Part shown: positions 3,876 to 27,094 of the stretch, in pieces | How positions within the stretch are numbered: the first letter of the stretch is position 1 | Layout: every line of letters starts with the position of its first letter | Virus record (IMG/VR): IMGVR_UViG_3300010371_000047 | Location: 1 to 47,753 of that record | DNA: 47,753 nucleotides | Strand: one strand, 5' to 3' | DNA from: a virus | The notes under the pieces: model-generated | What the model was told of the DNA's origin: nothing | What the model saw: only the letters and a program-made list of their open reading frames with translations | Database searches by the model: none | Position numbers and translations under genes: made by a program

Positions 3876-4157
3876 GGTTGGCCTCGGCGCTGCCGTTATG
3901 TGATTTCCATTTGCTTTGCGCTTTACGTTTTGCTTCGTAGTTTCCCTCGCGATGAGGGAAATCAATAACAACGGCAGTGATAGCGGTGCTGGGCGCTGGT
4001 CTGGGGGCCTCTCGGGGCCTCTTCCACTCGACTCTCCCTTGGGAGGTGCGCGGGGCCAAATCGGGCGGGGTTAGGGGTTGAGCACAATTGGGTGATAGGG
4101 CAGGTACGAACCCGGCCCCTCCTCTGTTGGTGCGGAGGATGTTAACAAGCGTCATCC
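3876..4157. other. Intergenic leader upstream of portal
   Basis: About 280 bases between the 56-aa gene and the portal start. The minus strand has a 96-codon frame (ATG at 4155, stop at 3865, running into the portal start) but its sequence lacks any protein-like character, so I do not call it. The 60 bases just upstream of the portal ATG are A-rich on the coding strand, and a strong hairpin lies at 3941-3961. Confidence 0.5.
3941..3961 (-). promoter_or_regulatory. Perfect 8-bp hairpin in portal leader
   Basis: Arms TTTCCCTC (3941-3948) and GAGGGAAA (3954-3961) with a 5-base loop, 65 bases upstream of the portal ATG. It lacks a U-run on the minus strand, so it is more likely an mRNA processing or stabilising hairpin, or a weak attenuator, than a terminator. 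Confidence 0.45.
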
Positions 4158-4328
4158 TTAAACGCTCCTACGGGACGCGAACCACTCGAAGGTGCGGCCC
4201 TCGAAGGTTTCATCGTCGTCGTCTTGCCAAGTGTCGGAGGCGAACAGCACGCGTTCGGTCCTCTCGGTTTCCGTGGCGCGCTCCCGTTCTGGACGTTCGC
4301 GATGTGTGGGGGAAAGGTAGTACCTCAT
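4158..4328 (-). CDS. Small Arg/Glu/Asp-rich hypothetical protein
   Basis: 56 aa, starting MRYYLSPTHRERPE at the ATG at 4328, which overlaps the TGA of the upstream gene (ATGA). The middle is highly charged (ERERATETERTERV) and followed by an acidic run QDDDDETFEGRTFEW. The ATGA coupling and the compact acidic-aromatic C-terminus support a real gene. No family recognised; position between a small virion gene and the portal suggests a head-assembly or virion accessory role. Confidence 0.6.
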   Translation of the reverse strand: MRYYLSPTHRERPERERATETERTERVLFASDTWQDDDDETFEGRTFEWFASRRSV

Positions 4329-4828
4329 CCGAGAACTTTTTTACCACCACTGATCTGCGGCGAACGGTTGGAGCCGGTGATGAAGGTGCCGTTCGCGTTC
4401 CCTTCGGCTGGGCCGAACAAGGACGTGCCGCTGCTGCCGAGGAAGGTGGGCGCTTGCGGGGCTTGTGGGGGTTTGGGCGGCTTGGGGCCAAGCGCCTTTG
4501 CGGCGAGCGGGGTCAGCACAGACGCGGCGGTTAGGCCCGCTTGAGCAGCGGTCAACCCTCCGGTGGCAGCGGTCGCAGCGGTCGTTGCGCCGAGGCCCGT
4601 CGCTGCACCCACGCCAGCGGCAGTTGCATCGGCGGCGGTCCCAATCGCGCCTACGGTGGACGCGATGTCGGCAGCGGCGAGGCCGGTGGTCGCAGCGGTT
4701 CCAGCGGCAGCAGCGGTAGTGGCGGCAGTTGCGGCGGTCAGCCCCGTTGCGGCAGTGCCAGCAGCGGCCCCCGCCCCACTCAACGCGGTCGCGCCTTCGA
4801 TGGCGAGGGAGATTGGATCGAAGCCCAT
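4325..4828 (-). CDS. Ala/Thr-rich small virion protein
   Basis: 167 aa from the ATG at 4828 (MGFDPISLAIEGATAL), one base into the terminase stop. The N-terminal two-thirds is nearly all Ala, Gly and Thr with apolar repeats (TAATAATTAAAAGTAATTG), which suggests a membrane-active or packing segment. The C-terminal 50 residues are different: PKPPKPPQAPQAP, then GTFITGSNRSPQISGGKKVLG. Phages often carry a protein of this style between terminase and portal; exact function unknown. Confidence 0.65.
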   Translation of the reverse strand: MGFDPISLAIEGATALSGAGAAAGTAATGLTAATAATTAAAAGTAATTGLAAADIASTVGAIGTAADATAAGVGAATGLGATTAATAATGGLTAAQAGLTAASVLTPLAAKALGPKPPKPPQAPQAPTFLGSSGTSLFGPAEGNANGTFITGSNRSPQISGGKKVLG

Positions 4829-6411
4829 CAATGCACCTGTGGGGCGGTGGGGCGGGAGTAGAAGTGTTCGGGCAGGGGCGCCTCGCGCTTGGCCCACCCA
4901 CTCACCTGCGTGTCGTATGCGAGCGGGTCGTATTCGGACTTCATCTGGCTGCGGCCCTTCCATGCGGTGGTCGCGACCGGGAATGCGAAGGTGAGGGCGA
5001 TGGCGTCGGCGATGTCGGGGGAGTCCTCCATCTCATCCTTCGGCGTCAACACGATGGCGTCCTGCTTGCCCTTCACCTTCGAGTGGCCGTACTCGACAGC
5101 GATGAGTTGGTCGAGGAGGTCGCGGTCATTCGGCAAGCAGCCGCCCTCACGGAGCCACGTGCGGAGGCTCAAGTACATCTCGGCGCGCTTGTTGGCCGCT
5201 AGGTCGCCCCCAAGCGGTACGCTCGCCGCTCCGCCGAATTGAACTTCAATTGGGGAGTGCCCGAGGTGACGGAGGAAGTCAATGACGCCAGAGCCCACAC
5301 CGCCGCCGTCAATAAAGATGGCGTCGGGGTTGTGCAATGACTTGAGCGCCGCGACTTGCTGGCCGAGTTCCACATTGTTGAGGCCCCGATAGCGGAGGAG
5401 TGGGATGGTGCGGGCGTCCTTGCCCCGGCGGAAGAAGATGACGGATTCGTCGTCGCCTTGTCGCGCCACGTCCACACCCATGATGAGCGGCTCGCCGTAG
5501 AAGGACTGTGGGGCGCGGTTCATCGCCGCGCGGATGTCCTCGGAGGAGATGAGCTGGCTAGCGCTCGATGAGGGGAACTCCCCCAGCCACCGCTTCTTGA
5601 TGTGGTCGGAGTCGACGCCCCAGAGCGCAATCTGCTTCTCGATGTACTCCTTGTTGGTGAAGCTGACTTCGCGGGAGTCCACTTTGAAGGTCTTCCAGAA
5701 CTGGCCCTGGCCCTCGGTGTCGAAACACTCGCGGAAGCGGCCCGTGTTCCGGGTGGGGTTGCCCATCGCGAACCACAGCAACTCGGTGTCCTTCTCGCCC
5801 ATCACCCCGTCGATGGTTTCCCAGATGTTGGAGGTGATGCCGGAGGCCTCGTCGAAGATGACCAGGGCGCGCTTGCCCTCGTTGTGGAGGCCGGCGAAGG
5901 CTTCGGGGTTGTCTTCACTCCAAGGGATCGCGTCGATGGACCACTCGGGGTGTTCGGGGTCGGTGGAGGCCAACGACGTCGACGTCCACTTGAACAGGTC
6001 CTTGCCCAAGAACAAACGATGCCATTTAGCCAACTCTTTCCAGAGTTTGAGGCGGAGCTGCTTCTCAGTGTTCGCCGTCACCGCGCCCTTGGTGTCGGCC
6101 ATGGTGGAGATGGCCCAGAGGATCAGCCAACACACCATCGCGGACTTGCCGATGTTGTGGCCGGAGCGGACGGCGATCTGGATGGCGTTCGCGATGATGA
6201 GTTCGGGGCGGCGCAGGCCCTCCGCGAGTTTGTCTTCGAGGTAGGTTAGGAGTTCATCCTGCCAGGGCTCAGGGCCGGTCTTCTTCTCCAGTTCGCCGGG
6301 CTGGCCCCAGGGGAACATGGCATAGACGAACGCGCGCGGGCGGAATGAGTAGGAGCCCAACTCCGTGAGGAGGGCGTCGCGATCTTCTGGTGAGAGGCCC
6401 CCCGGCGTCAT
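4828..6411 (-). CDS. terL: Terminase large subunit
   Basis: 527 aa DNA-packaging motor, ATPase plus nuclease. The ATPase P-loop is GHNIGKS at residues 84-90, a deviant Walker A as in many terminases. Walker B is LVIFDEAS with D187 and E188. A coupling-type motif WFAMGNPTRNTGRF follows around residue 213. The C-terminal RNase H-like nuclease begins with MGVDVARQGDDESV near residue 313, continues with AIFIDGGGVGSGVID and ends at PDIADAIALTFAF, which supply the acidic metal ligands. Starts three bases after the small terminase stop. Confidence 0.93.
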   Translation of the reverse strand: MTPGGLSPEDRDALLTELGSYSFRPRAFVYAMFPWGQPGELEKKTGPEPWQDELLTYLEDKLAEGLRRPELIIANAIQIAVRSGHNIGKSAMVCWLILWAISTMADTKGAVTANTEKQLRLKLWKELAKWHRLFLGKDLFKWTSTSLASTDPEHPEWSIDAIPWSEDNPEAFAGLHNEGKRALVIFDEASGITSNIWETIDGVMGEKDTELLWFAMGNPTRNTGRFRECFDTEGQGQFWKTFKVDSREVSFTNKEYIEKQIALWGVDSDHIKKRWLGEFPSSSASQLISSEDIRAAMNRAPQSFYGEPLIMGVDVARQGDDESVIFFRRGKDARTIPLLRYRGLNNVELGQQVAALKSLHNPDAIFIDGGGVGSGVIDFLRHLGHSPIEVQFGGAASVPLGGDLAANKRAEMYLSLRTWLREGGCLPNDRDLLDQLIAVEYGHSKVKGKQDAIVLTPKDEMEDSPDIADAIALTFAFPVATTAWKGRSQMKSEYDPLAYDTQVSGWAKREAPLPEHFYSRPTAPQVH

Positions 6412-6413
6412 GG

Positions 6414-7250
6414 TCAGCTCACATCCGCATCGGTGATGTAGGCCTGGACGGCCCGTTCGCGGGAGAGGCGGAGCTTATCGCCGATGCCGTGGTTGACGTT
6501 CACGTTGACGGACTTCGCCACCGGCGCGTGGCCTGTGCGGTCGGCGATGAGGCGGTAGGCTTCGAGGAGCTGGGCGGGCGAGAACTTCTCCGGCGTCTCG
6601 TCCAACACCTCCTGCAACCGCATGAGGAAGTCTTTGCCAAGCTCCGCCGATGCTGTGGCGAAGTCCATGAACGCGTGGTCCACCTGACCGGTGTAGTAGG
6701 CGAGGAGTTCCTGGAACGCGGGGTTGGCCTTGAGTTGGCTGACGCGAGCGATGGAGTAGTTGCAGAGGGTGGCGGCGACTGTTTCGTCCATCCCGCCCGC
6801 AAGCATCTGGGCGAGGCGGTGGTGGGTGTGGCGGAGGGCCTTAATGGTGTTCGCGCCGTTGGGGTCGAAGGAGGAGTTGCCCACTTGGCCGCCTTCGGCC
6901 AACACCGCGTTCATGGCCTCGACGTGCGTGGCGTCGAGGGGGCCGGTGGAGGTGACGACTTCGTGGAGGGGAACCACCGGGCGCGCCTTGGTGGCGAACG
7001 CGGGGCTGAACTTCGGCCCGTCCATGAAGGCGTCGAGGTCGGCGTCGGTGAGTGCGGAGGGGTGCATGAAGCGGACCTGTGTGGGTAAGCCATACAACGA
7101 CGCGGGCTGGGCCGGGAGGTAAGTAGCAGGATCGGCCCCAGCGCCACCTTGGGGTCTAGGGGTGGTGCCTGTCAAGCGGGAAACCACAAGAGGGGCGAAA
7201 TCGGCCTTGACAAAGCGTCGCGGGGCGACTATTCGCGCGCGCCCGCCCAC
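6414..7250 (-). CDS. terS: Terminase small subunit (start uncertain)
   Basis: 278 aa from the GTG at 7250; the recognisable part begins about residue 90. It would bind the packaging site and feed DNA to the large subunit. The region LRHTHHRLAQMLAGGMDETVAATLC followed by ARVSQLKANPAFQELLAYY looks like the helix-turn-helix plus oligomerisation helix seen in terminase small subunits of alphaproteobacterial phages. The C-terminus carries VAKSVNVNVNHGIGDKL. No clear ribosome site precedes the GTG; an ATG at 7067 (MHPSALTDADLDAF) gives 217 aa and is a plausible alternative. Immediately precedes the large subunit. Confidence 0.72.
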   Translation of the reverse strand: MGGRARIVAPRRFVKADFAPLVVSRLTGTTPRPQGGAGADPATYLPAQPASLYGLPTQVRFMHPSALTDADLDAFMDGPKFSPAFATKARPVVPLHEVVTSTGPLDATHVEAMNAVLAEGGQVGNSSFDPNGANTIKALRHTHHRLAQMLAGGMDETVAATLCNYSIARVSQLKANPAFQELLAYYTGQVDHAFMDFATASAELGKDFLMRLQEVLDETPEKFSPAQLLEAYRLIADRTGHAPVAKSVNVNVNHGIGDKLRLSRERAVQAYITDADVS

Positions 7251-7303
7251 GCGCGGTCTAGAATGACTCGGCGGCCAGAGGGCGCATTGTATGGCTTACC
7301 CAC
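7081..7303. repeat. 17-bp perfect inverted repeat flanking the terminase start region
   Basis: GTGGGTAAGCCATACAA at 7081-7097 and its exact reverse complement at 7287-7303, 189 bases apart. One arm lies inside the 5' part of the small terminase frame, the other in the divergent control region. Could be paired sites for a regulator or for the terminase (a packaging site); no further copy was noticed. Confidence 0.6.
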
Positions 7304-22207: not shown

Positions 22208-22665
22208 TGGCTCTGGACTTCTCAAAGTATTTGGACGTTGACGTTGAGTCCGTCCCGAAGACCCTGCCCTCCGTCCCCGGCGGCCACTGGTTCGCCACCA
22301 TCTCGGGCTGGAAGGGCGCGGAGCGCAACTACGACAAGGCCACTGGCGGCCCGCCCACTCCCGTGGTCGAACTCACCTTCAAACTCACCTCGCCCGACAG
22401 CGATGTGGAGGATGAGGAGGCCGCCCAACGCTCCATCGGCAAGCTTGCCACCAAGGACTACAACCTCGCCGACGGTTCGGGCCAAACGATGCTCCGCAAC
22501 CTCGCCGAGGACACGCTCGGCCTCGACGTGAAGGGTCTCCATTTCTCTGACGTCCTTGACGCCCTCAAGGGCCAAGAGGTCAAGGTCTTCAACAACCCGC
22601 GCGCCGGGAAGGAAGAGGGCCAGTTCTACACCAACATCACCAAGGTCCTGGGCGCGAGTTCGTAA
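22207..22665 (+). CDS. Probable partner of the Sak4-like ATPase (DUF669/SSB-like)
   Basis: 152 aa, MALDFSKYLDVDVESVPK. Its place directly behind the ATPase gene (one-base overlap) and its features (PGGHWFATISGWK, VVELTFKLTSPDSD, a C-terminal LKGQEVKVFNNPRAGKEEGQ) recall phage OB-like single-strand binding partners such as the DUF669 proteins. The family assignment is by context and overall shape; I see no diagnostic motif. An acidic helical insert (DVEDEEAAQRSIGKL) lies mid-chain. Confidence 0.6.
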   Translation: MALDFSKYLDVDVESVPKTLPSVPGGHWFATISGWKGAERNYDKATGGPPTPVVELTFKLTSPDSDVEDEEAAQRSIGKLATKDYNLADGSGQTMLRNLAEDTLGLDVKGLHFSDVLDALKGQEVKVFNNPRAGKEEGQFYTNITKVLGASS

Positions 22666-22666
22666 C

Positions 22667-23737
22667 GTGTTTGGCCCCGTTGTACCCTCAGCGGGGCCAT
22701 CCCCGTGCCGCATCATGATCCTCGCCGAAGCCCCCGGCTCCGAGGAGTCCGCCAAACTCCGCCCACTCGTCGGCCCTAGCGGCCACGAACTGCGGCGGCA
22801 ACTCAACACTGTTGGGATCAATCTCGATGACTGTTTCAAAGCCAACGTCTTTTCCCGCCAGCCGGACGGGAACAACCTGCACCTTTACTCAACATCGGTG
22901 GAAGCCGACCAAGTTCGTGAGCAAGGCCCCCTCGCGACTAACCCTGTTGCCTACATGGACCGCGCGCATTCGTGGGAACTTGAGCGTCTTTACGCCGAAA
23001 TACGTGCGTGCAATCCACACATAATTATCGCCCTCGGCAACACCGCCACTTGGGCGCTAGGCCTCGGCCTGGGCATCTCCGCCCTACGCGGTTCGGTGCA
23101 TACAACGTCGGTAACTGGCCGCCCGGTGAAAGTCCTGCCGACCTACCATCCCGCCATGATCCTCCGCCAATGGGACCACCGCGTCATCGCCCTGGCCGAC
23201 CTCGCCAAAGCCGAGCGCGAATCCCACTACCCAGAGGTGCGCTTCGACAACACCGAACTCTGGCTAAACCCAACCCTCGCTGACATCGCCGAGTTCGACG
23301 CCCGGTTCATGCGCGACGCGCGCCGATGCGCCTGCGACATCGAAACCAAGCGCGGCCAGATCGACTGCGTGTCCTTCGCGCCCTCGCCGGAGTACAGCAT
23401 CTCCATCCCCTTCTGGGTCGAAGGCCCCTCCCCCAACTACTGGCCCACCGTCGCCGAGGAACTCGCCGCGTGGCGCTGGGTCCACTGTTGGCTTGAGCGC
23501 GGGGACCTCGTTAAGTGCTTTCAAAACGGGTGCTATGATCTTTCATATCTTCCACTCACGGGCTGTACTCCACGCAACTGTTCAGAGGATACGATGCTCC
23601 TTTCGCATTCGCTTTGGAGCGAGATGCAGAAGGGGTTAGGTTTCTTGGGCTCAATCCACGCGAACTGCCCCTCGTGGAAGCAACTGAACAACCTCCACAA
23701 ACGCAAGAAAGAGGAGTTTATGAAAGCCAATGATTAA
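22667..23737 (+). CDS. Uracil-DNA glycosylase domain fused to the N-terminal part of a 3'-5' exonuclease (split polymerase, first part)
   Basis: 356 aa from the GTG at 22667, one base after the previous stop. Residues 15-185 are a family-4-like uracil-DNA glycosylase: AEAPG (20-24) with PLVGPSG, and the second active-site block TYHPAMILRQ near 160. Residues 218-350 are a DnaQ-like proofreading exonuclease: Exo I as DIET (D224, E226) and Exo II as NGCYD (N287, D291), then DTMLLSHSLW and GLGFLGS. The third exonuclease motif is missing here and lies in the polymerase gene at 24082. UDG-exo-Pol A normally form a single polypeptide in SPO1-like phages. Ends WKQLNNLHKRKKEEFMKAND. Confidence 0.85.
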   Translation: MFGPVVPSAGPSPCRIMILAEAPGSEESAKLRPLVGPSGHELRRQLNTVGINLDDCFKANVFSRQPDGNNLHLYSTSVEADQVREQGPLATNPVAYMDRAHSWELERLYAEIRACNPHIIIALGNTATWALGLGLGISALRGSVHTTSVTGRPVKVLPTYHPAMILRQWDHRVIALADLAKAERESHYPEVRFDNTELWLNPTLADIAEFDARFMRDARRCACDIETKRGQIDCVSFAPSPEYSISIPFWVEGPSPNYWPTVAEELAAWRWVHCWLERGDLVKCFQNGCYDLSYLPLTGCTPRNCSEDTMLLSHSLWSEMQKGLGFLGSIHANCPSWKQLNNLHKRKKEEFMKAND

Positions 23738-23876
23738 ACCTGAGAAACTCTCCTCCTTCGACAAGAAGAAGCTCCGCGAACTCCACGCCACCGGCGTCAG
23801 CGCGCAGAACCTCGCGAAGCGGTACGGCATCTCGCCTAGCGCGGTCAGTCGGATACTGAGTGGGGAGCGCCCATGA
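23730..23876 (+). CDS. Tiny helix-turn-helix protein between the polymerase parts
   Basis: 48 aa, MIKPEKLSSFDKKKLRELHA. A clear helix-turn-helix: VSAQNLAKRYGISPSAVSRIL. This motif occurs at the end of some homing endonucleases and in small phage regulators. Its ATG overlaps the end of the exonuclease gene and its stop overlaps the next ATG, so it is coupled into the split polymerase operon. It could be a remnant of an endonuclease whose insertion split the polymerase, or a live regulator. Confidence 0.65.
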   Translation: MIKPEKLSSFDKKKLRELHATGVSAQNLAKRYGISPSAVSRILSGERP

Positions 23877-24091
23877 GAGTTCACGTCCCCGACCTCTATA
23901 TTTTGACCGATGCCCGAGGCTTCACCACCGCGATCACCAAACGCGATGCCGTAAACCGCGAACTCGCCCGCGTACCGCTCCTCGTCCCGATCACCGTGTG
24001 TGGCTGGGCGCGGGTCGGCGCGCACTTCGGCGTCACTTGGCGTAAGCTCACCGAGTACACCTGGGACGGGATGCTCGCGTCATGGCGCTGA
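23873..24091 (+). CDS. Small hypothetical protein between the polymerase parts
   Basis: 72 aa, MRVHVPDLYILTDARGFTT. Strand and helix alternation (TAITKRDAVNRELARVP, WARVGAHFGVTWRKLTEY). No family recognised. Overlaps the HTH gene by four bases and the polymerase gene by ten. Its high GC differs from the less GC-rich 3' end of the exonuclease gene. Confidence 0.58.
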   Translation: MRVHVPDLYILTDARGFTTAITKRDAVNRELARVPLLVPITVCGWARVGAHFGVTWRKLTEYTWDGMLASWR

Positions 24092-25896
24092 AGCTCCGTT
24101 CCGCCGACCTCTACACAACCCTCTCCACCCGCGACCTCGACGCCTCCACAACCCGCGCGGCATACAACGCCCTGGACTCCGCAATCACTCTCCGCGTCTT
24201 CGACTCCCTCTCCGAAGTGGTCCGCAAGCAAAACACCTCCCACGCGGCGACCTCCTACCAGTTCGTCCGCGCAATGCAAGGCCCCGCGATGGCAATGGTG
24301 CGACGCGGGATCGCCGTCAACACAAAGGTCCGACAAGATGAAACTGAGCGATTTCTGGCCGTTCGGGCGAAAGCCCAAGCAGTTCTCGACACCCTCGCCG
24401 CTGCCGTTTGGGGACCAGCCCGCGTTGTCGTTAAAACCCGGAGCCGTGAACTATTCACCCCGATTGGGAAACGCGGTCAGCAACTTACACCTCGCTATCG
24501 AACCATCGTTGTCGAAACCGAAACCTCCGTCCCCCGAGGCCTCAACGCCAACTCCGACAAGCAAGTCCTCGCCTTCTTCAACACCGCTCTCGGCCTCCCC
24601 GTCGAGTACGAAATCCGCAAGCGGCCCACGGGCTCGGAGCGCACGCCCTCGGCCAACAACAAAGCCCTCCGCAAATGGGCCCAAGCGCGGACGAAAGGAC
24701 CGGGGGTAGATGGGAGGGACCGAAGTGTCCCCAGCGTTAGACTCGCTGCTCCTTTCGTTTCGCTCATTCTCACAATTCGAGACGCGGACAAAATGCTGTC
24801 AGTGTTGCGCACCCCTCTCGACCCCGATGGACGAATGCGCTGCAGCTATAACGTGGTTGGAACGGAGAACGGACGATGGAGTTCAAGCAAGAACGCCTTC
24901 GGACGCGGAACTAATCTTCAAAATGTCACCCCGCCTATGCGAAGAATGTTCTGCGCAGACGACGGTTACCGGTTTGTGTCAACTGATCTTGAACAAGCCG
25001 AATCCCGCCTAGTCGCGGGCCTCGTCTGGGCCACCACCGGCGACGACACCTACTGGCGCGCCTGCCTCAGCGGCGACCTACACACCACCGTGGCCCGCAT
25101 GACGTGGCCGGAATTGGGATGGACAGATGACCCGAAAGCGAACCGCAAAGTCGCCGACACGCCCAGCCGCGAACTTCCGAAGTTCTCTTATCGTGACATC
25201 TCTAAGCGTCTCGGCCATGGAAGCAATTATCGTGGCTCCCCTTTCGGCATCGCGCAAGCTGTTGGAGTACCTCCGAACATTGTCGAAGACTTTCAACGTC
25301 GATATTTCAATGCCTTTCCAGCCATACCTCACTGGCACGAATGGTGCAAACGTCAGTTGGTGGATCACCAGTTTCTCGATACGCCCTTGGGGCGTCGTAG
25401 GTGGTTCTTTGGACGCCCGAACGAAGATTCAACACTTAGGGAGGCTATCGCCTTTGGCCCCCAAAGTACAGTGGGCGAACTTCTGAACCTCATCATGTAC
25501 AAAGTCTGGGTCCGATCACTCCTCCCCCCCACCGACCCGTCCCACCTCCCCATCCAACTCCTCCTCCAAAACCACGACGCCTTCGCCTTCCAAACGCCGA
25601 CCTCCGCCCACCTCCCCACCATCATCGCCTCCGTCAACGCCGAGTTCAACTCCACCCCAATCCCGTTCGTCAGGGGCGACGAGCGGCGCGACCTAATCAT
25701 CCCCGGCGAGTTCGTCACCGGGTTCAATTGGGCCTACGCGGACAACGACCCTGATCCAGGCAAGTGGCACTTCGTTGACGGGAACAAAGATGGACTCCGC
25801 AAATGGTCAGGAAGCGACGAACGCATCCGCCAGCAGCCTGCGATTGCTCGCAGCGCCGACTTCCTCGGTCGGCCCAGCGCCCCAAGTTGGAGGTGA
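24082..25896 (+). CDS. Family A DNA polymerase (split polymerase, second part)
   Basis: 604 aa replicative polymerase. Residues 28-32 YNALD are the Exo III motif (YxxxD), completing the exonuclease of the preceding protein. The polymerase palm has motif A as TDLEQAESR (D302), motif B in RDISKRLGHGSNYRG (about 368-382), and motif C as QNHDAF with D499. The usual glutamate after that aspartate is alanine here. A template-related segment NVVGTENGRWSS and TNLQNV precedes motif A. The C-terminal 60 residues overlap the helicase gene. Base use varies: 24700-25000 and 25130-25480 are less GC-rich. No 5'-3' exonuclease. Confidence 0.9.
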   Translation: MALKLRSADLYTTLSTRDLDASTTRAAYNALDSAITLRVFDSLSEVVRKQNTSHAATSYQFVRAMQGPAMAMVRRGIAVNTKVRQDETERFLAVRAKAQAVLDTLAAAVWGPARVVVKTRSRELFTPIGKRGQQLTPRYRTIVVETETSVPRGLNANSDKQVLAFFNTALGLPVEYEIRKRPTGSERTPSANNKALRKWAQARTKGPGVDGRDRSVPSVRLAAPFVSLILTIRDADKMLSVLRTPLDPDGRMRCSYNVVGTENGRWSSSKNAFGRGTNLQNVTPPMRRMFCADDGYRFVSTDLEQAESRLVAGLVWATTGDDTYWRACLSGDLHTTVARMTWPELGWTDDPKANRKVADTPSRELPKFSYRDISKRLGHGSNYRGSPFGIAQAVGVPPNIVEDFQRRYFNAFPAIPHWHEWCKRQLVDHQFLDTPLGRRRWFFGRPNEDSTLREAIAFGPQSTVGELLNLIMYKVWVRSLLPPTDPSHLPIQLLLQNHDAFAFQTPTSAHLPTIIASVNAEFNSTPIPFVRGDERRDLIIPGEFVTGFNWAYADNDPDPGKWHFVDGNKDGLRKWSGSDERIRQQPAIARSADFLGRPSAPSWR

Positions 25897-27094
25897 GAAT
25901 CTTGTCGACCTCTTCCTCAGCTACACCAACGATCTCCCTTCACCTAGAGTGTTCCGTCTGTGGGCGGCCATACACGCCATTGGAGCGTCCGGAGAACGTA
26001 GAGTCTGGACTCAATTTGGTCGTTTGCGACTTTACCCCAACCTGTTCGTGTTTCTCGTGGGACCTCCGGGTACTGGCAAAACCGTAGCACTCAACCCCGT
26101 TGGGGAGATGCTGCGGAAAGCCCAGAGCGTCACTCTGGCACCGAATGACATCACTAAGCAAGGCCTTCTGGACACTCTGTATGAGGCGGCTCGGGCTGCG
26201 TTAATTGATGGTCGCCCCTTCGACTACCACTTCCTCGCCCTCCACATCGCCGAACTCTCCAACTTCATGTCGCAGTACGATGCGGCGCTGGCGGGACTCC
26301 TGACCGAACTCTTCGACTGCCCTCCCTTTAACGAGGAGGTCAAGCGCGGCCACGACAAGGGCAAGTTCATCCCCTTCCCCGGCATCTCCATGATCGTGGG
26401 CACGGCCACCCAGAACCTCGGCGCGACCATCTCCGACGAGATGTGGGGCTCCGGCTTCATGGCCCGCGTTATCATGGTGTACTCCGCTGATGAGGTGATC
26501 CCCCTCGACATGTTCGCGCCGGTCCCCGTCAACGACGTGATCGCCGCTGAGCTTGAAGTCGCCCTCCGCCGCGTGGGCGAGATGAAGGGCGAGATGACGT
26601 GGGAGGCCCCAGCCCGCGCCGCGCTGAACACCTTCCGCATCAATCAGAAAGACGGCGCGCCCCTCCACAACCGCCTCACCCATTACGTCACCCGCCGCTG
26701 GCTGCACCTCGCCAAGCTCTGCATGATCGCGGCCCTCGCCGACGAGCGGATGGTGGTGCGGGAGGCCGACTTCCTACTCGCCTACTCCTGGCTCCTTGCC
26801 GCCGAACACGACATGCCCGAAATCTTCAAAGACATGCAGACGCATGAAGATGGCCAAATCTATGAGGAGTTCCGCAGCGCCATGTTCCAGCTCCACTTCA
26901 ACAACGGGCGCGGCCCGGCCCCCATCCATATCAGCGCGATGTACAAATGGCTGAGTACGCGGGCTGCGACCCACAACATCGACCGCATCATCGCAATCAG
27001 CATGGCGGCGGACTTATTCCGCCGAGTGGCGGGCGAAGACGATCTCTACATGCCACAAGGCCCAAAGGGCGGCAAGAACTTGGGGGTGTTCTGA
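25790..27094 (+). CDS. P-loop NTPase, probable replicative helicase
   Basis: 434 aa from the ATG at 25790, within the last 107 bases of the polymerase gene. Walker A GPPGTGKT at residues 91-98, preceded by a strand LFVFLV. A later strand with glutamate (FLALHIAELSNFM) is probably Walker B, and MIVGTATQN a sensor. N-terminal FLSYTNDLPSPRVFRLWAA and C-terminal helical domain recall DUF3987-type phage helicases found behind polymerases. No primase domain or other helicase was seen in the window, so it is the best candidate for the unwinding engine. Function inferred. Confidence 0.72.
   Translation: MDSANGQEATNASASSLRLLAAPTSSVGPAPQVGGENLVDLFLSYTNDLPSPRVFRLWAAIHAIGASGERRVWTQFGRLRLYPNLFVFLVGPPGTGKTVALNPVGEMLRKAQSVTLAPNDITKQGLLDTLYEAARAALIDGRPFDYHFLALHIAELSNFMSQYDAALAGLLTELFDCPPFNEEVKRGHDKGKFIPFPGISMIVGTATQNLGATISDEMWGSGFMARVIMVYSADEVIPLDMFAPVPVNDVIAAELEVALRRVGEMKGEMTWEAPARAALNTFRINQKDGAPLHNRLTHYVTRRWLHLAKLCMIAALADERMVVREADFLLAYSWLLAAEHDMPEIFKDMQTHEDGQIYEEFRSAMFQLHFNNGRGPAPIHISAMYKWLSTRAATHNIDRIIAISMAADLFRRVAGEDDLYMPQGPKGGKNLGVF

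Follow-up and report, generated by a model that had tools for sequence, protein, structure and literature searches.

Single-chain UDG-exo-PolA polymerases (PHROG 17; including those of Microcystis phage Mel-JY34, MW202489, and of phiLo, 9qhs) have the same domain order and the same exonuclease and polymerase motifs as the locus reported here, and their phages have a similar replication neighbourhood, with DUF3987/primase downstream. Where these enzymes have a short WKDEGK...W-YN linker, however, the present locus has two chain ends and inserted genes. Divided polymerases have precedents, and the preliminary description of this DNA was right to place one of them in family B: Aeromonas phages 25 and 44RR make their polymerase as two proteins, gp43A and gp43B, with a homing endonuclease gene or a spacer between them, and the two proteins of phage 25 co-purify and form an active polymerase (Petrov 2010, reviewed in PMC2988022). 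These are family B enzymes, whereas the present one belongs to family A. The NrdA of phage Aeh1 is also an essential enzyme in two chains that reassembles with activity (Friedrich 2007, reviewed in PMC2988022), but it is a ribonucleotide reductase and was split by a recognisable mobE endonuclease, unlike the present case. The OM43 phages MEP401 and MEP402 carry a family A polymerase in two ORFs with a small ORF between them, as here; their break lies inside the polymerase domain and leaves the exonuclease whole, unlike here, and an intron was suspected by the authors (PMC10580990).

Caulobacter phage Kuura (OQ067476), an isolated member of the clade described below, has the same break and the same halves as our locus (Kuura_029 and Kuura_026; 45% and 54% identity over aligned columns for the two halves), with two small genes in its cut other than those found here. 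The annotation of its genome lists chain A only as a hypothetical protein, and its paper (PMC9959647) nowhere uses the word "split". A search of the open-access literature for a description of this break or clade returned only MEP401/402 and family B or Pol III cases; split phage polymerases are thus already known, while this break and this clade are undescribed in the literature found.

Layout and domain identity of the divided enzyme

The window, meaning the whole stretch of viral DNA analysed (47,753 nt), encodes the divided enzyme in four frames, which we call A, B, C and D and which overlap successively by 8, 4 and 10 nt. The layout agrees with the preliminary description in every respect: Exo I and Exo II lie on A, Exo III lies at residues 28-32 of D, and two small genes joined by short overlaps stand between them. 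The features are as follows.

22667..23737, + strand: chain A, 356 aa, GTG start; UDG and the N-terminal part of a DnaQ-like 3'-5' exonuclease with Exo I and Exo II
23336..23347, + strand: Exo I, DIET, A residues 224-227 (D224, E226)
23525..23539, + strand: Exo II, NGCYD, A residues 287-291 (N287, D291)
23710..23716, + strand: Shine-Dalgarno-like AGAGGAG within the final codons of A
23730..23876, + strand: gene B, a 48-aa HTH protein in the cut
23873..24091, + strand: gene C, 72 aa, without known family
24082..25896, + strand: chain D, 604 aa; Exo III segment and family A polymerase thumb-palm-fingers
24082..24162, + strand: N-terminal extension of D, residues 1-27, with a candidate docking strand at 12-17
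24142..24228, + strand: predicted Exo III helix of D, residues 21-49, from structure model and couplings
24163..24177, + strand: Exo III, YNALD, D residues 28-32 (Y28, D32)
24985..24987, + strand: polymerase motif A aspartate D302, a conserved column
25192..25230, + strand: polymerase motif B, R371-K375-H379-Y383, conserved columns
25573..25578, + strand: polymerase motif C HD (H498, D499), conserved columns

Profile comparison revealed that A covers columns 481-782 and D columns 808-1246 of PHROG 17 (UDG-exo-pol DNA polymerase); these stretches are consecutive, so A and D are successive pieces of one family. Pfam placed UDG (PF03167, 2.7e-17) in A and DNA_pol_A (PF00476, 2.9e-21) in D. The UDG domain is family-4-like and forms the N-terminus of A (approximately residues 9-171), all three motifs of the DnaQ-like exonuclease are present with Exo III on the second chain, and D carries family A motifs A, B and C (D302; R371/K375/Y383; H498/D499). 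His379 in motif B of D sits at the position of E. coli F762. In place of the single polypeptide of the UDG-exo-PolA class, two ORFs were found in the window and its relatives (303 loci), the one-chain form being confined to outgroups among the loci compared.

Structure models of the chains were in keeping with these assignments. Modelled A (pLDDT 91.4) matched the UDG fold of 1ui0 with Z 22.6, and as a whole chain it aligned to residues 34-453 of the single-chain phage polymerase 9qhs at a high rmsd of 15.7, reflecting either different domain placement or poor fit. The model of D, built from this chain alone, reached pLDDT 87.3, with only 66-79 over its first ~60 residues; residues 6-552 of D aligned with Klenow residues 469-926 (Z 29.4), a start just upstream of the Klenow Exo III residues Y497/D501. 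In alignment, A and D together span the single-chain homologues end to end, and the start segment of D, with YNALD, falls on the true Exo III of single-chain relatives. That the locus encodes a UDG-exo-pol enzyme of family A interrupted within its exonuclease, as read earlier, is thus supported by both PHROG 17 coverage and this alignment.

In a comparison with L010, the closest relative of the window, dN/dS was 0.10 for A, 0.15 for D and 0.23 for C, with 0.9-1.1 in the shifted frames of C; the low values indicate selection on A, C and D as coding genes. For B it was 0.76 at 47% identity, and this gene appears to evolve fast.

A single break and the turnover of genes within it

The same break was found at 303 loci (298 usable, 202 non-redundant), and 303 of 307 split loci are divided at exactly this site. 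Nearly all are IMG/VR metagenomic contigs, the one isolated phage being Kuura, and Kuura and all close relatives of the window phage share the break. A search of genome contigs gave three matches, all in metagenome-assembled bacterial bins, and two of these (L176, L177) contain both chains with the same split. In the polymerase tree (83 split rows and 32 single rows), the split members form one side of a branch with SH-aLRT 98, requiring one change, and the sister set is mostly single-chain. The break, which had been called unusual, is not peculiar to one phage but the fixed state of a large clade, and the recurrence that the preliminary description proposed to look for in related phages is extensive. 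The enzyme was very probably divided once, in the ancestor of the clade, and has been divided ever since.

The cut itself ranges from 0 to about 1.9 kb. Across 94 cuts, about 90 unrelated gene families were found, and in 35 of 198 loci the cut is too small for any gene. On the tree, the presence or absence of small genes changes at least six times and the commonest cargo family at least eight times. The small genes are thus replaceable cargo that comes and goes in a cut that tolerates insertions. The two that had been described are indeed present in the window, but they are not a characteristic part of the split, given that the contents turn over and can be absent.

How the cut arose is a separate matter. 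A free-standing homing endonuclease may have split the Exo II-Exo III linker and later been replaced by cargo, with B as its orphan HTH; this account, which concerns origin only and is compatible with the overall explanation favoured below, is possible but on balance doubtful. Precedents exist in mobE within Aeh1 nrdA and seg43 within gene 43 of Aeromonas phage 25 (PMC2988022). HNH endonuclease genes occupy four of the 94 cuts in PHROG profile searches (L018, phrog_374, 1e-61; L060, phrog_99, 1.5e-13; L089, phrog_99, 2.8e-37; L163, phrog_59, 1e-24). Gene B has a Pfam HTH (HTH_3/HTH_7-like, 5.5e-6 to 9e-6), with a weak resemblance to the HTH at the C-terminus of HNH endonucleases from phages (phrog_6156 and phrog_59). 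Four nucleases with best matches to three PHROG families, however, also fit later invasion of an open cut. A BLAST comparison of B with the L163 nuclease gave no significant similarity, so that the orphan-HTH idea draws on the PHROG profile overlap. As in other genes in pieces, a conserved enzyme gene is split here into complementary parts, but the homing endonuclease of that class is missing from the window's cut, B and C having no nuclease domain in Pfam or PHROG.

The small genes could alternatively be subunits or regulators of the polymerase, with C for example as a bridge, and the cut could exist for their joint production. Gene C, without a Pfam match, overlaps both neighbours and is under purifying selection. 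Relatives of it occupy the same position in L008, L010, L012 and L013, and its retention beside D in five related loci takes one change on the tree; DUF1937/DUF7768-type genes account for 51 occurrences in the 94 cuts. Against this stand the diversity of the cargo, the gene-free cuts and the repeated changes of state, and we consider such a role quite unlikely.

Conservation and coevolution of a proposed composite exonuclease site

The catalytic residues were examined across the 298 usable loci, where the polymerase motifs are intact. D224 and E226 of A (Exo I) are present in all 297 aligned relatives that have no gap there, N287 and D291 (Exo II) in 298 of 298, and in D the Exo III aspartate D32 in 298 of 298 and Y28 in 297 of 298; few columns of either chain are invariant, and those of the three exonuclease motifs are among them. 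Two loci appeared as Exo III exceptions: L119 retains a complete Exo III and in addition has an intein-like insert in chain D, and L095 has Arg in place of Tyr with Asp retained. An apparent loss of Exo I in L050 and L061 was a regex artefact, DIET being present in both.

These observations were complemented by mean-field DCA of A residues 187-356 against D residues 1-79 in 298 paired loci (Neff ~173), a modest depth at which the overall excess is firmer than any individual pair. Among the 20 strongest couplings 8 were inter-chain, and among the 50 strongest 21. In the controls, the number of inter-chain pairs in the top 50 was 0-6 when nine other segments of D were used, 4 when UDG was set against D 1-79 and 0 after random mispairing, and shuffling within 2, 14 or 46 clades left 0 inter-chain pairs; together, the far D segments, UDG, mispairing and within-clade shuffles exclude phylogenetic correlation as the sole source of coupling. 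The couplings are structurally sensible. Residues 236/238 of A couple to D33, which adjoins the catalytic D32, and 312/313/316 couple to D43/46/47 at helical spacing; overall, the Exo III helix of D (21-49) covaries with A 236/238, 301, 307, 312-316 and 332. An antiparallel ladder with a near-constant sum links A195-201 to D17-12, suggesting D residues 12-17 as a candidate docking strand against the edge strand 195-201 of A; the isolated D model is helical at residues 7-16, a stretch that the couplings would make a strand. Judged from sequence comparison, conservation and coevolution support reassembly of the two chains into a composite proofreading site, as the preliminary description deemed necessary for proofreading, and the coevolution takes the place of the complex prediction proposed there.

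The chains might instead work apart, A as a UDG whose nuclease domain is inactive or of another kind and D as a polymerase without proofreading, the Exo III residues being leftovers. The chains are encoded separately with other genes between them, and D alone is predicted to form a complete polymerase fold; nevertheless, retention of all three exonuclease motifs in essentially all 298 loci, together with strong and specific inter-chain coevolution, makes this very unlikely.

Expression, proposed assembly and implications

The arrangement of the genes suggests coupled translation. Across the clade, AGG makes up 52% of Arg codons in the tail of A and 6% in the gene body, the next start lies no more than 10 nt from the A stop in 80 of 87 loci, and D has its own start, often in a TAATG or similar overlap preceded by a Shine-Dalgarno sequence. 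A promoter and terminator scan gave nothing clearly above shuffles separating the genes.

It is extremely improbable that the halves end up as one chain, whether by splicing of an intron, by a ribosome that bypasses the cut or shifts frame, or by ligation through a split intein. Phage polymerase genes do host introns and inteins, and L119 (in chain D) and the single-chain relatives L243-L247 contain a mini-intein-like insert. Here, however, Rfam gave no match over 22600-26000 even at E 5, Pfam detected neither an intein nor a Hint domain in either chain, and the cut is either empty or filled with unrelated coding genes. The chain ends (the A tail and the N-terminal segment of D) extend only ~20-30 aa beyond the conserved fold, too short for a split intein, and D carries its own start. 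A sequencing or assembly error or a pseudogene, as one metagenomic contig by itself could mislead, can be dismissed, given at least 202 non-redundant loci with the break, one of them an isolated phage, and dN/dS of 0.10-0.15 for A and D; neither the frameshift error nor the intron that the preliminary description had considered explains the break.

The best explanation, which we hold as very probable, is an enzyme of the SPO1/PHROG 17 kind that was split in the Exo II-Exo III loop and whose chains reassemble noncovalently. An ancestral UDG-exonuclease-polymerase would have been divided once, between Exo II and Exo III. Chain A would have kept the UDG domain together with the exonuclease sheet bearing Exo I and Exo II, and chain D would provide the polymerase preceded by the final helix of the exonuclease, on which the Tyr and Asp of Exo III lie. 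A and D would assemble without a covalent link, the Exo III helix of D docking into the exonuclease domain of A to complete the metal site for active proofreading, and the N-terminal segment of D would probably pair antiparallel with the edge strand of A. The genes may form one translationally coupled operon in which the final codons of A hold the ribosome binding site for the next gene, and small genes, in the window B and C, would have been inserted into the cut. Kuura, with the same arrangement, forms plaques (PMC9959647).

The described split replicative polymerases come from few phages, and here one break, running through the proofreading site of a family A enzyme, is common to at least 202 distinct members, in which chain A is easily overlooked, being a "hypothetical protein" in the clade's one annotated genome. 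A cut in an essential gene is used as a site of small-gene turnover. The clade may represent a natural, long-running protein fragment complementation, in which hundreds of pairs show contacts that replace a peptide bond. The split could even be useful, the UDG-exonuclease chain being detachable and the A:D ratio, set by coupled translation through the cargo genes, tuning or switching proofreading, with the docking strand a post-split addition; we regard this as unlikely. If true, the clade's polymerase would have adjustable fidelity and an exonuclease active site completed in trans. A, D, D32 and residues 1-20 of D are accordingly targets for questions of how a two-chain site assembles and how subunit ratio affects fidelity.

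Layout of the divided enzyme

The four reading frames proposed in the preliminary description were recovered at exactly the same positions, with overlaps of 8 nt (A/B), 4 nt (B/C) and 10 nt (C/D):

22667-23737, + strand: A, UDG domain, Exo I (D224, E226) and Exo II (N287, D291)
23730-23876, + strand: B, 48-aa helix-turn-helix gene in the cut
23873-24091, + strand: C, 72-aa gene in the cut
24082-25896, + strand: D, 27 residues, Exo III (Y28, D32), then family A polymerase

The idea that both large chains together make up a single UDG-exonuclease-polymerase enzyme was upheld by the PHROG 17 profile, which is covered piecewise by A to column 782 and by D from column 808, and all domains are therefore present. 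The UDG motif (22724-22747, A residues 20-27) reads AEAPGSEE, where many relatives have GEAWGE. The 3' end of D apparently overlaps the next gene by about 107 nt (25790-25896, given an ATG at 25790), this gene being a primase-like DUF3987 gene ending at 27094.

The model of A (pLDDT 91, with a short disordered tail at its end) aligns with family-4 UDGs and, at high rmsd, with the single-chain phage polymerase 9qhs over residues 34-453. The model of D has a pLDDT of 87, but of only 66-79 over its first 60 residues, where the Exo III helix lies; such low values could be anticipated for a segment modelled without its partner. This model aligns with Klenow residues 469-926 at Z 29.4.

Distribution and conservation

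By scanning IMG/VR, in which the window is a separate virus record, with the A and D alignments, we collected about 400 loci, finally classed as 307 split, 78 single and 21 incomplete (298 usable; 202 non-redundant at 95%). Related phages do share the break, a check proposed in the preliminary description: it lies between Exo II and Exo III in 303 of 307 split loci and occurs in the isolated Caulobacter phage Kuura, whose cut holds two unrelated genes. A single branch (SH-aLRT 98) of the maximum-likelihood tree built from the polymerase part sets off the 83 split rows, and one change suffices for the split state; the break is a clade character.

Across 298 paired loci, ungapped counts were 297/297 for D224 and E226, 298/298 for N287, D291 and D32, and 297/298 for Y28. 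These residues, among the few invariant columns of A and D, are as conserved as the polymerase motif residues: the exonuclease is kept in the split clade.

Viral PolA is typed as Phe, Tyr or Leu by the residue that corresponds to F762 of E. coli Pol I. At this position the clade, window and relatives alike, has His (D H379, 25216-25218; 287/289 ungapped relatives).

Most members of the closest large single-chain group (L179-L258 plus cultivated relatives) have one chain, and a few are broken elsewhere. Breaks were found at the UDG/exonuclease boundary (L190, L223) and before motif A (L228, L249, L251, L257 and Vibrio phage VS-ABTNL-3), a frameshift error being possible for single cases such as L228; given these other positions, the enzyme family seems prone to fission. 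These breaks in the polymerase family, to which that of L006 before motif A belongs, lie at different domain borders, and some of the cuts contain genes. Within the loci seen here, only the Exo II/Exo III break founded a large lineage.

In-frame mini-intein-like inserts were observed in the single-chain loci L243-L247 (within 4001-7279; C-VTAGHEVLTPEGW...VTGN before SNYGG) and in chain D of the split locus L119 (C-VRPTAEALTPFGW...VTGN before TNLQN).

Coevolution between the chains

Among these results, all of them sequence-based, inter-chain coevolution is the strongest argument that the two halves remain in contact. By mean-field DCA, at modest depth, the exonuclease part of A (187-356) was concatenated with D 1-79; inter-chain pairs made up 8 of the 20 strongest couplings and 21 of the top 50. 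By comparison, nine D segments of comparable length from elsewhere in the chain, paired with A 187-356, gave 0-6 in the top 50 and the UDG with D 1-79 gave 4; random mispairing of A and D gave 0 in the top 50, as did shuffling partners only within clades (2, 14 or 46 clades). The coupled pairs are structurally sensible: D33, adjoining the catalytic Asp, pairs with A236 and A238, which lie on a strand; D43, 46 and 47 of the Exo III helix pair with A312, 313 and 316, located in the helix that follows Exo II; and D38 pairs with A332. Couplings of A195/198/199/200/201 with D17/16/13/14/12 look like an antiparallel strand pair, a candidate docking strand. Because every sequence in the set is split, the coevolving substitutions postdate the break, given a single origin.

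Contents of the cut and origin of the split

In 94 loci inspected closely, cuts mostly hold 0 to 5 ORFs, 164 ORFs forming about 90 families, although chance ORFs may account for some singletons. The commonest passenger, a nucleoside-deoxyribosyltransferase-like DUF1937/DUF7768 gene (51 copies), usually lies immediately before D (for example in the split loci L027, 4654-5004, and L028, 1634-1969); KTSC (7 copies), NrdR-like Zn ribbons, MazG, RNase H, dNMP kinase, FkbM methyltransferases, HNH nucleases and many unknowns also occur. The cut is too small for any gene in 35 of 198 non-redundant loci, where D almost always follows A directly or overlaps it (e.g., AAGAGGGATGACTAATGAAA). At least 6 changes on the tree are required for gene absence and at least 8 for the most frequent cargo family; the split enzyme therefore does not need the inserts. 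AGG makes up 52% of Arg codons in the conserved A tail (KKED, KRDE) versus 6% elsewhere, and this tail likely doubles as a ribosome-binding site. By dN/dS against the closest relative, L010, C is a selected gene (0.23) and B is poorly constrained (0.76).

In T4-like phages, genes are split in like manner by homing endonucleases (PMC2988022). HNH nucleases occur in 4 of the 94 cuts, their best matches being three PHROG families, and B resembles the helix-turn-helix part of HNH nucleases at profile level; direct comparison of B with the HNH nuclease of L163 found no significant likeness. An endonuclease origin of the split is plausible, if unproven, and later nuclease invasion of an already open cut fits equally well.

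The passages found in a 2024 survey of phage polymerases (PMC11348598) contain no mention of the Exo II/Exo III split group. Two-chain phage polymerases are already known: gp43A/B (PMC2988022), considered here by its description, belongs to family B, unlike the window's family A enzyme, and MEP401/402 (PMC10580990), of family A, is broken inside the polymerase domain and keeps the exonuclease whole on one chain, whereas the window clade divides it over A and D.
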